Source of the DNA: a virus
Strand: one strand, 5' to 3'
IMG/VR virus record: IMGVR_UViG_3300030098_005849
Span: 1-50,642 of that record
DNA length: 50,642 bases
The notes beneath the pieces are model-generated. The model was not told where the DNA came from, made no database searches, and saw nothing but the letters and a program-made list of their open reading frames with translations. Numbering within the stretch: the stretch's first letter is position 1; each line of letters opens with the position of its first letter. Shown one piece after another: positions 25,472-39,832 of this stretch. The position numbers and the translations under genes are program-made.

Positions 25472-27565
25472 ATGGCTTTTGGTCAATCGGAAGATGAACA
25501 ACGAAGACTAAGAGAGTTACAGGTTTTTGCTCCCTATCAACCTTTAGAAGGTTTAGGGTTTAAAACTAAACAAGGACTCCTTTCAGGTTTTCAATGGAAT
25601 AGTATCAATGAGCCTGAACTCACTCTTGATGTAGATGGTATACGTGCATATGGATTAGATAGTATTTATCAAATTGAGTATTTAGCAAAAGCAAGTACAA
25701 TAGAACCTAACAGAGTTATTAGTACTAGTTTTGATACAATAACTCTTCCTTATACTCCTCTTTCTATTATTACAGGACCGACTGGTCCAATTGGAGATCC
25801 AGGTACTGCAGCAACAGGATTGCAAGGTCCAGTTGGAGAACAAGGACCTACTGGAATTGCTGGAGCTGATGGAGGAGAAGGTGCTCCAGGTCGCCCAGGT
25901 GCAACAGGATCTACAGGTATTCAAGGATTTAGAGGACCTCGAGGAGTAGAAGGTGAATGTTGTGTTTGTAAAACATGTGCTCCTGCTGCGGATGGTTCTT
26001 ATACAACTTGTGAAACAGGATGTAAATTACCTTTTTATATTAACTGCAGTTTTGAATTACCAAATGCTATATTCCATTACGATGTTACTGAAGACGATGC
26101 AGTAGGTAGTTTAGATGGCCCTGGTTGTTTTGATGACGAAGGTAACTTTAGTGATGTAGGATGTTCTTTAGCATTAGAACCTTTAGCAGGTAATCAAATA
26201 GATGTTTCTTTACAATGGAATGTTGCTGCTGGAAGATACGATGTAGTTGCTAGTAATGATCTTTCAGGAACTCAAGACACTTGTCTTGGAAGTGCAGGAG
26301 ATTGTAATAATACTAGACCTGCTGGAACGCAAACAAATTGTGGAATCCTTATAGGTAAAACAGGAATTACGAGTTGTCAAAATTGTACATTAACTCGATT
26401 ACCCGATACGATTACAAGTCCTCATATTGTAATTAATCATGGTATGGGTACAAGTGGAGCTAAAACATGCGATTGTGGTTGGAGTGAAGATGGTCAAGAG
26501 TTAAATATTTGTGGTCATGGAGGAGGATGCACAGTTATAACTTTTAAAACTCCTACTATTGTATGCGATTCTAATGAAGAGATAAACGGAGAACCTAACC
26601 CTGAATACAATAAGATGTATGTTCATTTAGAAATAGATGAAACTAAAACAAGAATCCCTTACAAAGGAGTAGCCGAAGGATTAAAATCTTGCCAACTTCC
26701 TGCAGGATGTGCTTTTTTACAAGGTCAAGATGTAGTCTACGATGATGCTTGTAAAACTTGTTATGAAAATGATGCAGCTGCAGGAGATTGTGTAGGTTGT
26801 TTAGGAAGGTATAAAGCCCCTAAAAACTCTAAACTTTTTTATAACGTAGCTTGCCCTAACACTTTTGTTAATTTTGGTACTTGTGGTAATTGTCTTGCAG
26901 GATGTTTATTTGATTTATATGACGATAACCCTTGTGATGTTTGTCAATTTGTAAATGAAATAGAAAATTCAGTTGCAGGAGTAGAATGTAATGTCACAGT
27001 TGCAGATGAACCTTCAGCAGATTTTTCTTGTAATGCTCCTAAGTTTGAAAGCATGGGAGGTTACATCTGTGGACAAACTGCTTCAGGTTCTTCTTGCCAA
27101 ACAGGTTGTTTTCCAGGAGTAATTAGTAATGGATGTGTTAATAACTTATCGCATCTCCCTAACGATATAACTTCAACTTGTGCTCATAATATGGGAGCTA
27201 ATGGAAATACAAACTGTCATTGTTTTGGTGATACATTTGAATACGGAACTAGACCTAATGGAGCTACGATAACTTGTATTGGATCTCAAAATAAAACTGC
27301 TACTAAATGCATGGACCAAGCAAGAATTACAGGGTGTGATTGTGAATGTGTTATGATTTCAACAGGACAAGGACAAGGAAACGTTAATATTAAAAATAGG
27401 ATATTAGTAAGTACTTGTGGAGGAGATTTTATGTCCCAAGTAACAGATACAGGAGCTTTTAAAGAATTAGCTTCTACAGGATTTGGTACAACTGCAGGGA
27501 CTGATGGAGATACTCAATTAGCTACTCTAATCTTTGACGATGATATTGGAGGAACTTATACATGA
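25472..27565 (+). CDS. Cysteine-rich collagen-like fibre protein
   Basis: This 697-residue protein has a head part (1 to about 101), about 20 Gly-X-Y triplets (GPTGPIGDPGTAATGLQGPV and on, to about residue 165), then GECCVCKTC. I count about 46 Cys in the whole protein, nearly all after the collagen part. Two related blocks occur: LPDTITSPHIVINHGMGTSG followed by AKTCDCG, and LPNDITSTCAHNMGANGNTN followed by CHCFG, a likely internal duplication. The tip could be held by disulphides or metal. Such Cys density is unusual in a cytoplasmically assembled virion protein. It probably forms the receptor-binding fibre. Confidence 0.7.
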   Translation: MAFGQSEDEQRRLRELQVFAPYQPLEGLGFKTKQGLLSGFQWNSINEPELTLDVDGIRAYGLDSIYQIEYLAKASTIEPNRVISTSFDTITLPYTPLSIITGPTGPIGDPGTAATGLQGPVGEQGPTGIAGADGGEGAPGRPGATGSTGIQGFRGPRGVEGECCVCKTCAPAADGSYTTCETGCKLPFYINCSFELPNAIFHYDVTEDDAVGSLDGPGCFDDEGNFSDVGCSLALEPLAGNQIDVSLQWNVAAGRYDVVASNDLSGTQDTCLGSAGDCNNTRPAGTQTNCGILIGKTGITSCQNCTLTRLPDTITSPHIVINHGMGTSGAKTCDCGWSEDGQELNICGHGGGCTVITFKTPTIVCDSNEEINGEPNPEYNKMYVHLEIDETKTRIPYKGVAEGLKSCQLPAGCAFLQGQDVVYDDACKTCYENDAAAGDCVGCLGRYKAPKNSKLFYNVACPNTFVNFGTCGNCLAGCLFDLYDDNPCDVCQFVNEIENSVAGVECNVTVADEPSADFSCNAPKFESMGGYICGQTASGSSCQTGCFPGVISNGCVNNLSHLPNDITSTCAHNMGANGNTNCHCFGDTFEYGTRPNGATITCIGSQNKTATKCMDQARITGCDCECVMISTGQGQGNVNIKNRILVSTCGGDFMSQVTDTGAFKELASTGFGTTAGTDGDTQLATLIFDDDIGGTYT

Positions 27566-28461
27566 TTCTTAAAAATAGATTTGATAAAGATGTTTCTTTA
27601 GAAAACCAATATGCAGGTCAATCTATTTTTCTTTGCGGATCAGGACCTTCTCTTAGAAATCATGATCTTCACCTTTTAAAAGAGTCACAAGCTTTCACCT
27701 TTGGCCTTAACAATCTATGGTCTTTAATAGATTTAGACTTTTGGACAGCAATGGATCCCCCAGAAAAGTTTTTATCTTGGGGACATATGAATCCCCGTAT
27801 TCAAAAGTTTTATCCTTCTCATCATAAAGATAAATACTTACGAACTAAAACAAAAGAAGATAAGTTTATAACTTTAGAAACTACCCCCAAAGACTGTCCT
27901 AACGCTTATTTTTTTAATGGGACATTGGGCTGGACTAAACTGTTAGAAGAGCCTTCTTTATTTTTTACATTGGGAGAAGTAAATTGGGGATCCGATAAAA
28001 AGCATGATCCTGAATTAAAAAATATGTGGTGTAGAAGTAGTTTACTTCCTGCATTTAGAATTATAGAATATTTAGGGTTTACAAAAATCTATCTTATAGG
28101 ATGTGATTTTAAAATGAATACCTCTACTCCTTATGCTTTTGGACAGATGAAACAAAAGGTTGGAGGTAATAACGCTGCATATGTAGCCCAGAACAAAATG
28201 CTTAAAGCTTTGTACCCTGAGTTTTTAGCAAGAGATGTACATATATACAATTGTACGAAGGAGTCTTACTTAAATGTTTTCCCTTATTTCGAATATGAAA
28301 AAGCTTTGGAGGAATGTGCTCATTACTCAAGAGAAGACACCGAAGGATGGTATCACGAGGAAATCAACAGAGGAGTCGTTATCAAAAAAGGGGCTTATAA
28401 AACCCACCAATCTAAGATCATTACACCTCGAAAAGAACGAATGGTTTTACAAGGCAGTTAG
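27562..28461 (+). CDS. MptE/DUF115-like Rossmann protein, possible glycosyltransferase
   Basis: The product of 299 residues starts as ATGA overlap with the fibre gene after GGAGG. Near residue 22 it has SIFLCGSGPSL, the GxGPSL loop of MptE-like (DUF115) and some sialyl/Kdo-transferase-type proteins. Further on come FTFGLNNLWSLIDLDFWTAM and YLGFTKIYLIGCDFKM, the latter typical of the same fold. In phages such genes often lie among tail genes. Modification of the fibre or of a surface glycan is possible; catalytic residues cannot be fixed from sequence alone. Confidence 0.65.
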   Translation: MILKNRFDKDVSLENQYAGQSIFLCGSGPSLRNHDLHLLKESQAFTFGLNNLWSLIDLDFWTAMDPPEKFLSWGHMNPRIQKFYPSHHKDKYLRTKTKEDKFITLETTPKDCPNAYFFNGTLGWTKLLEEPSLFFTLGEVNWGSDKKHDPELKNMWCRSSLLPAFRIIEYLGFTKIYLIGCDFKMNTSTPYAFGQMKQKVGGNNAAYVAQNKMLKALYPEFLARDVHIYNCTKESYLNVFPYFEYEKALEECAHYSREDTEGWYHEEINRGVVIKKGAYKTHQSKIITPRKERMVLQGS

Positions 28462-36954: not shown

Positions 36955-37290
36955 ATGAAACCTAATTATAAGACTATTAGCCATTTAAGTTGTTTAGACC
37001 ATAATGCCAGGGGAGCATCGCTCATTCCTCTGGGGGGAAAAACGAATGAGGTTATAGTTAATCTTTCAGATGAGGAAGGTATAGAAGAGATTAAAGGATC
37101 TCGTATTTATCCTAAACAGATTAGAAAGTTTCTTTGGAATAACAGAAAATCAAGAGCTTTTACTCGAAGAGAATCAGTTCTTTGGACTGCTTATATTCCT
37201 GGAACAGACACTTCTATTTTAGGAGTGGGAGCTTATACTAAAAGACGTATAGCAGAACGTTCTAAGAAGGAGATTATTTCCAATGGCTAG
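36955..37290 (+). CDS. Small basic hypothetical protein
   Basis: The product of 111 residues begins MKPNYKTISHLSCLDHNARG after AGGTAAAG. The second half is strongly basic and aromatic (YPKQIRKFLWNNRKSRAFTR, TAYIPGTDTSILGVGAYTKR). It overlaps the start of the SLOG gene by 8 bases. No family recognised; its position between internal core candidates suggests a virion or assembly role. Confidence 0.6.
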   Translation: MKPNYKTISHLSCLDHNARGASLIPLGGKTNEVIVNLSDEEGIEEIKGSRIYPKQIRKFLWNNRKSRAFTRRESVLWTAYIPGTDTSILGVGAYTKRRIAERSKKEIISNG

Positions 37291-39832
37291 AGGAAAAAGA
37301 GTAGCTATTGTTGGAAGTAGAACTGGAATAAAGCAACAACAAGTTGTTGACTTTGTAAACAGTTTGCCTGAAGGAACTATTGTTGTAAGTGGAGGTGCAA
37401 GAGGAGTTGACAAATGGGCTGAAGAGGCTGCTAGAGTTAGAGGATTAGAAGTAGATATTTATCCTGCAGATTGGAATAGACTAGGTAAAAAAGCAGGTAT
37501 GATAAGAAATAGAGATATTGTTAAAAATGCTGATGAAGTGGTAGCTTTTTGGGATGGTAAAAGTCGTGGAACAAAAAATACTATGGAGCTTGCTGAACAA
37601 GCAGGGAAATTAATTACCCCTAATCAAAAAGGAGTTACCTCAATGGCTAAAAAAACTGACCTTCCTCCAAGATATTTATCTGGTCTGCCTGAGGGAAGAG
37701 AATTAGCAGAAACTCAAAGAGAAGCAATGGGACTTCCCCCACTAGTTAAAAACACTCAACTCTACACTGCAAAAGATTTACCTCTTTTAAAAAAACTTTT
37801 ATCTAATGCTCATATTAAAGTTTTAGACTCTTATGAAAAGCAACGCCAAATGGCAGGTAAACCTACTGGAAGGAGTTTAGAGGAGAATTTGAATAATTTA
37901 AAGTTAGATGAGTTATATGATAGACAACAAAGAGTTTATAGCGATATAATGACTCGTTTAGATAAAATTATAAAAGGTTCTTCAAAACTTGGGGATGGAA
38001 GCATAGAGTTTAGAGGAGAATCTTTAAAAGATATTTTAAATTTTGAGAAAGAACAGTTTATAAAAGATTTTAAAGACGTACCTAATCCATATGATGATAA
38101 AGGTACTGATTCTATTATGCCTTCAAAATCTAAACTGCCCTCTCAAGGGTTGGGAGATTTGCCTAAACAAGTAGGTAAAAAAACTCAAACTTATACTATG
38201 AAAGATTTACCTCGTTTATATAGTATTTTAGAAAATGCTCAAAGTAAAATTGCAGACGCTTTTTATTTCCAAGACGAAATGGGATTTGAAGCAGCTTCAA
38301 AACAAACTAAAGTTTATAAAGATATAGATAAACGAATAACTGCAATTATAGAGAATCTTGAAGGTAGCAATATAGACCCTATAGGTGAAGTACAAGCTGC
38401 TGCTGGTATACGTCCGTCTCCAGCAACTAATATTCCTTATGAAGGAGAACCTTTAGAAGATATTTTAAAACGAGATCTTGAGAGAGTCCGTCCTGTTAGC
38501 CCTTCAAAAGTAGGTCCTAAAAAACCTAAAGGGTTGGGAGATTTACCTAAACCTGTATCTCCTAATATACAAAGAGCTAGAGAAAGAGCTAAACAAGCTA
38601 GGATAAATAAAGCTTTAACTCCTCCTGAATCATTAGGTCATCCTCCTCCTCAAAATCCTAGATCAGCTGGATTTGGAAGACCAGGAGGAGTAGGAGAAAT
38701 GGTAAGTGTTGAACCTGGTGGATATCCTCAAAGACCTAGAAAAGGACCTAAACCTTTTGATATTGGAATTTTTGAAGCTGATCAAATTCCTTATGAACCT
38801 AAACCTATGGAATTAGGTCCTGTTGGAAAATCAGCAGGAAGACCTCTTTTACAAATTCAAGGAACGCTTAAGATTCTTGATGATTTAAATTTAGATGATA
38901 TTAAAGGAATGAAAGAAGGAGAGTTAGTTAACCTTTTAGAAGAATTAAGAACTATTAGTGATGATGGTAAACAAATAGCAAATAGGATAAATCGTCAAGT
39001 AGATTTATCTCCTGCTGCAAAATCTAAAATTAAAAAAATATTAAAACTTGCTAATGAAAAAGCTGACGAAATAAAAGTAGAAAATCTTATGCCTTCTCCT
39101 GACGCAAGTCCAAGAATTATTAGTGAAGCAGAAGTTAAAAAAGCAACTCGAGCAGCTGTAAAGCTTGATCCTGCTGGTCGTACCCCAGGAGGAGTAGGAA
39201 CTAAACTAGGAGCTGCGGGTGAAGCCGTAGAAGATATGATGAAAATTCCAATAGATGAAGCGGGTAAACTATTATCCCAAGAAAGAATGTTACCACTTAG
39301 ATCTTCTCCTACAGCAGGAGTAGATGTCCCTGTAAATCCAGCTACATTAAATGAATTAGAAGCTAAAATTGATTTTACAGATACAACAAAATGGAGATTA
39401 ACAGGTCCTCCTGGTTCGCCAGGTGCTACTTATATGTGGATAGGGGAAGGAGATCCTCCTAAAATTACAGGAATGGAGGTTCCTGTAGGAAAAGTTTCTG
39501 AAATACAAGAAACAAAACAAAGATTCTTTAAAGGTAAAGGTGGAAAAGTATTAGGAGCGTTAGGAGCTCTTGGTGGTTTCTTTACTTTATACGATTCACT
39601 TACTGCAGGTAATAGAGAACGAAAAGCTGCACAAGCTGCTTTAGAACAATTACGTTTAAAAAGATCAATGGCAAGAAGAAATCAAGCTATGATGCCTGAT
39701 CCTGCTTCTGCAAGGTTTTTACAATTACAAGCTGCATTAGATGCTGCAAGGGAACCTCAAGGTGCTCAAAGAGGTATTTATGATACAGCACTAGGTAACT
39801 TAACTCGTACTAATATGCGGGATATAGCATAG
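37283..39832 (+). CDS. SLOG (YspA/DUF2493-type) domain fused to a long virion-type protein
   Basis: Residues 1 to about 112 are a clear SLOG/DprA-like Rossmann domain: VAIVGSRTG (7 to 15), VVSGGARGVDKWAEEAA (34 to 50), then IRNRDIVKNADEVVAFWDGK followed by SRGTKNT. Such domains bind nucleotides or their derivatives. From Met121 the protein changes to a helical, Pro-rich type with an internal repeat: TQLYTAKDLPLLKKLLSNAH and TQTYTMKDLPRLYSILENAQ, followed by GLGDLPK twice. A hydrophobic Gly segment lies near 755 to 770 (KVLGALGALGGFFTLYDSLT). Met121 has a strong ribosome site, so a short form may also be made. Total 849 residues. Confidence 0.78.
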   Translation: MARGKRVAIVGSRTGIKQQQVVDFVNSLPEGTIVVSGGARGVDKWAEEAARVRGLEVDIYPADWNRLGKKAGMIRNRDIVKNADEVVAFWDGKSRGTKNTMELAEQAGKLITPNQKGVTSMAKKTDLPPRYLSGLPEGRELAETQREAMGLPPLVKNTQLYTAKDLPLLKKLLSNAHIKVLDSYEKQRQMAGKPTGRSLEENLNNLKLDELYDRQQRVYSDIMTRLDKIIKGSSKLGDGSIEFRGESLKDILNFEKEQFIKDFKDVPNPYDDKGTDSIMPSKSKLPSQGLGDLPKQVGKKTQTYTMKDLPRLYSILENAQSKIADAFYFQDEMGFEAASKQTKVYKDIDKRITAIIENLEGSNIDPIGEVQAAAGIRPSPATNIPYEGEPLEDILKRDLERVRPVSPSKVGPKKPKGLGDLPKPVSPNIQRARERAKQARINKALTPPESLGHPPPQNPRSAGFGRPGGVGEMVSVEPGGYPQRPRKGPKPFDIGIFEADQIPYEPKPMELGPVGKSAGRPLLQIQGTLKILDDLNLDDIKGMKEGELVNLLEELRTISDDGKQIANRINRQVDLSPAAKSKIKKILKLANEKADEIKVENLMPSPDASPRIISEAEVKKATRAAVKLDPAGRTPGGVGTKLGAAGEAVEDMMKIPIDEAGKLLSQERMLPLRSSPTAGVDVPVNPATLNELEAKIDFTDTTKWRLTGPPGSPGATYMWIGEGDPPKITGMEVPVGKVSEIQETKQRFFKGKGGKVLGALGALGGFFTLYDSLTAGNRERKAAQAALEQLRLKRSMARRNQAMMPDPASARFLQLQAALDAAREPQGAQRGIYDTALGNLTRTNMRDIA
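37631..37645 (+). promoter_or_regulatory. Internal ribosome binding site and start within the SLOG fusion gene
   Basis: GGAG (37631..37634, within AAAAAGGAG) lies eight bases before an in-frame ATG at 37643, codon 121, just where the SLOG domain ends. The product would start MAKKTDLPPRYLSGLPEGRE, which reads like a natural N-terminus. There is no stop codon between the two parts. Confidence 0.7.

Follow-up and report, generated by a model that had tools for sequence, protein, structure and literature searches.

Why should a late gene of a short-tailed phage begin with a SLOG domain? The question is raised by an open reading frame (ORF) in a 50,642-base IMG/VR virus record from an uncultured phage, the whole length of which we refer to here as the window. 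The window encodes TerL (phrog_38), tail-fibre-like proteins, a PolA-type DNA polymerase, a primase and a metallophosphoesterase, and the ORF in question joins a SLOG domain in frame to a long Pro-rich second part. The features discussed below are collected in Table 1, with genes denoted by their first position. Elsewhere in the window, a sialyltransferase-like gene (27562-28461; phrog_4603, E 1e-8) sits between collagen-like tail genes and a large tail protein, and some kin have homologues of it at the same place.

Table 1. The fusion ORF, its parts and the neighbouring late genes (positions in the window).
Feature	Position	Strand	Remarks
Two upstream module genes, 444 and 549 aa	33957..36951	+	Ejection-type by size and position; similar-size counterparts at the same place in kin
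Conserved small gene directly upstream of the slot, 111 aa	36955..37290	+	Nearly every kin locus has a homologue; 25-41% identity (those aligned)
AAGGAG ribosome-binding site of the full-length ORF	37267..37272	+	10 nt before ATG 37283, within the 3' end of gene 36955
Fusion ORF	37283-39832	+	849 aa
SLOG domain, YAcAr / phrog_289 type, residues 1-112	37283..37618	+	Pfam, PHROGs, AF2, Foldseek
AAAAAGGAG, ribosome-binding-like site of the internal start	37626..37634	+	8 nt before ATG 37643 (codon 121)
Second part, slot protein of the late module, 729 aa	37643..39829	+	Occupies the place of the hypervariable slot gene in kin; putatively made from the internal start
Internal duplication in the second part	37748..38560	+	Units from residues 156 and 299; unit 1 to 298, unit 2 to ~425
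C-terminal hydrophobic segment and helical tail, residues 753-849	39539..39829	+	Weak match to the C-terminal domain of kin slot proteins
Conserved small gene directly downstream of the slot, 172 aa	39842..40360	+	A homologue in almost every kin locus; motif around LYNxxxAGRxLPxGAVxxGG
Large conserved late protein, 1258 aa	40360..44136	+	gp16-like by position only

An N-terminal SLOG domain and an internal ATG

The first-pass annotation had described a complete SLOG domain at the N-terminus, in frame with the rest of the protein, and profiles, motifs and fold all agree with this. When residues 1-120 were scanned alone they matched PF10686 (E 1.1e-7, 32.0 bits; cut-off 28.2), while the whole protein scored 27.8 bits, just under that cut-off. 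The domain also matched the DprA family PF02481 (E 1.1e-7) and phrog_289 (E 1.7e-26). Its motifs are complete, with GSR (residues 11-13) after strand 1, SGGARGVD (36-43; GGAxGxD in the family) after strand 2, and then RN (75-76) and GT (96-97); they are largely invariant among eight homologues, and 19 invariant columns are common to the window domain and seven free-standing phage homologues. Structure prediction of the N-terminal part, suggested at the outset as a check, gave a full Rossmannoid fold (AlphaFold2, mean pLDDT 90) that is ordered to about residue 110. Foldseek searches with this model retrieved DprA (4ljl, E 6.5e-6), ShosA (8zva, 1.3e-5) and ThsA (6lhx, 6.5e-3), whose SLOG domains have a fold like the predicted one; these proteins have other domains, whereas the window SLOG is a short single domain without them. 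The closest likeness is to free-standing phage SLOG proteins (YAcAr, PF10686 / phrog_289; annotated 'GTP-binding' or 'DprA-like'), which share the domain, the motifs and the fold but are separate genes, rather than being fused to a late module protein. Judged by its sequence, the domain, the only one of its kind in the window, is a member of the SLOG superfamily, in the YAcAr/phrog_289 branch, with a putative role in nucleotide binding or processing. The GC content of the SLOG part (0.375, against 0.360 for the module) gave no sign of a recent import.

An internal ATG falls nine codons past the end of the domain. It had been noted as a strong start, with AAAAAGGAG, an 8-base gap and ATG at codon 121, at the junction of the two parts, and this is exactly what we found. 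The anti-SD pairing of this site (-7.5 kcal/mol) ranks sixth among the 297 in-frame internal ATGs of the analysed genes and, set beside the gene starts of the module, is weaker only than that of the ORF's own start, which is the strongest of them (-8.1 kcal/mol). As to the further suggestion that the phage may make two forms, a second product of 729 residues is plausible, but SD strength alone is unexceptional, and we rejected the idea that this ATG proves two products because a stronger site exists at codon 473 of the same ORF. Codon 121 is notable because of its place at the domain border, and not for strength alone. Across the analysed genes, no internal ATG has a stronger SD-like sequence in front of it than the one at codon 473 (38679-38701; GGAGGAGTAGGAG-AAATG), which is probably a by-product of Gly/Glu codons but could yield a third product.

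The second part of the ORF is Pro-rich. It had no match in Pfam, in PHROGs or in phage genomes (tblastn), and exact peptide patterns retrieved no relatives of it in IMG/VR. It contains a tandem duplication of units of about 140 residues, whose local alignment score of 121 compares with a maximum of 48 in 300 shuffles.

A hypervariable slot in a conserved late module

We identified kin of the phage in about 75 IMG/VR records, by TerL and by flanking-gene scans; the conserved TerL segments gave 80 kin loci, and the small genes flanking the ORF (36955 and 39842), used as queries, gave further kin. TerL, portal, MCP and 40360 had no match in phage genomes (tblastn), the late genes of kin had no similarity to isolated phages in the phage collection searched, and a scan of genome contigs with the 39842 family found no host or prophage.

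The order of the module is fixed in kin: a gene of the size of a coiled-coil gene (at the 35302 position), the 36955 homologue, the slot gene, the 39842 homologue and the large gene. A 40360 homologue is present in 31 of 43 kin records (up to E 4.9e-191), and the 40360 family has no PHROG or PDB match. We regard the module as probably ejection-type, by gene order and size, because podovirus ejection genes (T7 gp14/15/16 type) are arranged likewise: late genes of small, medium and very large size follow the tail genes (PMC8954989). According to the same review, gp15-like proteins are matched mostly by size and synteny, not by sequence, and mosaic domain swapping among ejection proteins is common; the section consulted has no mention of SLOG. 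In contrast to the likeness in order and size, no sequence similarity to podovirus ejection proteins was detected, whether with positions 37643-39829 against PHROGs or with the 40360 family against PHROGs and PDB. The second part had earlier been called 'virion-type', and the label draws on the order of genes in kin; it owes nothing to homology with a known virion protein, of which PHROGs, Pfam and phage genomes gave none.

The window ORF fills the slot between the 36955 and 39842 genes. In 32 of 47 kin loci a slot gene lies between the homologues of these two; in most of the remainder, a protein with the C-terminal domain described below is encoded just upstream of the 36955 homologue instead. 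In one clade the flanking genes have nothing between them, and most of its loci have this upstream protein. The slot protein is hypervariable, ranging from 138 to 849 residues. A C-terminal domain of about 110 residues, with a hydrophobic stretch and helices, is common to 32-33 kin proteins, and their N-terminal extensions vary from about 10 to 850 residues. The nearest complete kin (L121/G001) has a slot protein of 216 residues without SLOG, and this has no detectable similarity to the second part of the window ORF. Our first model of the C-terminal domain was trained with the window sequence included and returned it at 2e-11; when rebuilt without the window it matched the window C-terminus weakly, at the right place (E 0.0077, or 0.008 against 2e-11; Z 1000), and the 39842 family scored about as well. 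The hydrophobic peak lies at residue 756, at a distance from the C-terminus similar to that in most kin. Hydrophobicity and position fit the kin domain, and the sequence agrees weakly.

Two further arrangements were seen in the module. A clade of four loci (L123, L126, L128 and L156) has two slot genes, which encode a protein of 579-753 residues ending in a hydrophobic segment and one of 130-343 residues with the C-terminal domain; the large proteins of this clade have no recognised domain except the SLOG of L126. In many kin the 39842 and 40360 homologues are separated by an additional small gene, encoding about 120-150 residues and often starting MAGE (e.g. L206 4733-5143), which the window is without.

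SLOG domains in kin and in giant phage proteins

SLOG profile searches covered 77 kin records, including the crAss-like L209, and 50 of these were also searched with phrog_768. Clear SLOG-type genes were found in G014, G061 and G064 (YAcAr type) and in G023 and G009 (phrog_768 type), and in every case the gene ran opposite to the late genes; matches in G003 and G067 were weak or partial. A match in G026, of 15 bits and within a capsid-protein frame, was dismissed as chance. The G009 gene (L220 601-2016), in that opposite orientation like the others, encodes a 471-residue protein in which an A1S_2505-type phage domain (NF049995, E 4e-14) is followed by a C-terminal permuted SLOG. The weak match in G003 (L222 433-1728) is to a 431-residue protein adjoining a DNA polymerase, whose SLOG-like halves are apparently about 250 residues apart.

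Among about 50 slots, SLOG was found in two, that of the window and that of G011 (L126). The 642-residue protein at the G011 slot matches phrog_768 positions 107-175 and then 3-56, that is, in circularly permuted order; against a doubled phrog_768 profile the two pieces, which scored 15.6 and 3.9 bits separately, form one unit of 24.0 bits. The assignment rests on these sequence profiles. Foldseek, which is order-dependent, returned no SLOG match with a model of the G011 domain, a negative that carries no information for a permuted domain. The G011 slot comprises two genes, the second encoding a 133-residue protein with the C-terminal domain, so that the G011 SLOG is not fused to that domain. 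Since it belongs to another branch and has a permuted order, it represents an independent event, and the sequences indicate that SLOG has entered the slot at least twice.

The permuted domain of G011 has relatives in giant proteins of other phages. It is 46.7% identical over 105 residues (E 1e-18) to the virion RNA polymerase (vRNAP) of the N4-like Klebsiella phage Pylas (Schitoviridae), near residue 1057, and domains of the same family lie in crAss-like phages, within coding regions of 12,987 and 17,406 bases. N4 packages its vRNAP and expels it into the host (PMC12633501); Pylas vRNAP places a SLOG-family domain in a giant protein of a packaged and ejected class. It differs from the window ORF in that its SLOG is of the permuted phrog_768 branch and its carrier is unrelated. 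The domain is absent from the annotation of the Pylas record (L186 8833-20292). A permuted SLOG is also present in a protein of more than 2,700 residues in an 86.6-kb contig (L209 3-8354), which resembles crAss-like giant proteins.

These comparisons bear on whether the ORF is a genuine fusion. It is possible, if fairly unlikely, that a free-standing SLOG gene of about 115 codons was inserted before the slot gene and joined to it through recent loss of a stop or an error in the consensus, the 729-residue protein being made from its own start and SLOG appearing only as a late or read-through product. The internal start, so close behind the domain, does resemble that of a genuine gene, and a single transition would turn codon 115 (CAA) into TAA and so separate the parts. 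Phage SLOG homologues are, moreover, mostly free-standing (read frames of 117-183 residues, L001-L006; PMC9503650), and the nearest to the window domain are free-standing proteins of unrelated phages, with 48-54% identity, against 30% for the separate G014 gene. The same figures argue that the window domain probably did not derive from the separate gene of its kin. Comparison with relatives, by which the first-pass annotation had hoped to learn whether the parts are separate genes, gave a mixed answer: SLOG in kin is usually separate and on the opposite strand and the slot protein is normally without it, and the fusion is therefore derived; no relative was found, however, with a stop between these exact parts, and G011, with SLOG embedded in a protein at the same place, is a precedent for a genuine fusion.

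A possible role at entry

We favour, somewhat short of even confidence, the reading that the ORF encodes a late protein of the ejection module whose N-terminal SLOG is a cargo, delivered by the virion and acting on host nucleotide signals at entry. The slot protein would be packaged with the other ejection proteins and would enter the cell with the phage DNA, and SLOG would then bind or cleave host nucleotide signals before any phage gene is expressed. Its ligands would probably be NAD or ADP-ribose derivatives, e.g. cADPR isomers. The internal start would probably also make the 729-residue protein without SLOG, and each virion might then contain many structural copies and few that bear the cargo. 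Packaging, ejection, action on host nucleotide signals and the two products are the steps that we infer. The proposal is supported by the domain with its motifs and fold, the synteny of the module, the cargo-like architecture in kin, G011, the Pylas and crAss-like proteins, the opposite orientation of the SLOG genes of kin, the fusion in G009, the view in the literature that viral SLOG domains counter cADPr-type signals (PMC9503650) and the internal SD. Against it count the lack of any match of the slot protein and of 40360 to known virion or ejection proteins (PHROGs, PDB), the weak C-terminal match, the presence of SLOG in so few slots, the closest solved folds (DprA), which bind DNA, and the possible read-through at one codon. 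The original suggestion of a virion-carried nucleotide sensor or signal-depleting domain accordingly gains from the intact SLOG, the conserved module, G011 and the Pylas and crAss-like precedents, but DprA-like DNA binding fits the closest structures equally well.

We consider it unlikely that the domain acts in this DprA-like manner, binding phage DNA, e.g. to hold or guide the genome end in packaging or ejection, rather than a nucleotide signal. Although the best PDB matches, by Foldseek and by profile alike, are to DprA, an ssDNA-binding protein, and the location in an ejection-type module would suit such a role, the score is far under the cut-off of the DprA equivalog TIGR00732 (27.2 of 191 bits), ThsA, a cADPR-type sensor, was matched too, more weakly, and the families nearest to it consist of free-standing phage proteins that the literature connects with NAD/ADPr biology (PMC9503650). 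Most kin lack the domain, so SLOG is not needed for ejection. It is more improbable still that the ORF encodes a late non-virion protein, such as an assembly factor or scaffold, with SLOG acting in the producing cell late in infection; the Pro-rich sequence and the want of a known virion homologue would agree with this, but the hydrophobic-helical C-terminus is conserved in kin, and a conserved block after the tail genes and before the largest late gene is the usual order of podovirus ejection operons (PMC8954989).

Returning to the virion-delivered cargo, a bolder and rather doubtful form of it is that the slot is dedicated to cargo: the C-terminal domain would anchor the protein in the virion, N-terminal counter-defence domains would be swapped, as the two SLOG types acquired independently may illustrate, and the internal start would set the ratio of cargo-bearing to bare protein. 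Elements of this are already known, namely SLOG in phages, the mosaicism of ejection proteins and injected multidomain proteins. Viral SLOG domains have been argued to act on ADP-ribose-type signals and to counter cADPr-type signals, and fusions of SLOG to Macro and NADAR domains have been noted; the domains named as likely to be packaged are Macro, NADAR and Nudix, not SLOG (PMC9503650). Polyvalent proteins, multidomain proteins injected with phage DNA (PMC5512222), are alike in having a conflict-type domain on a protein believed to reach the host together with the DNA, but they join many disparate domains, whereas the window ORF has one recognised domain, SLOG, and otherwise unknown sequence. 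What is new is the fusion of SLOG to a late ejection-module protein and its acquisition twice at one hypervariable place. In the open literature, from which most subscription journals are missing, we found no description of such a fusion.

Phage SLOG domains are common and are thought to blunt nucleotide-based immunity. The phage group has no similar isolate in the collection searched; with Pylas vRNAP, the idea can be tested in a phage that has been isolated. The slot, defined by its flanking genes and C-terminal domain, is a concrete place in which to seek further delivered domains. If it is delivered by the virion, SLOG would act before host signalling switches on.
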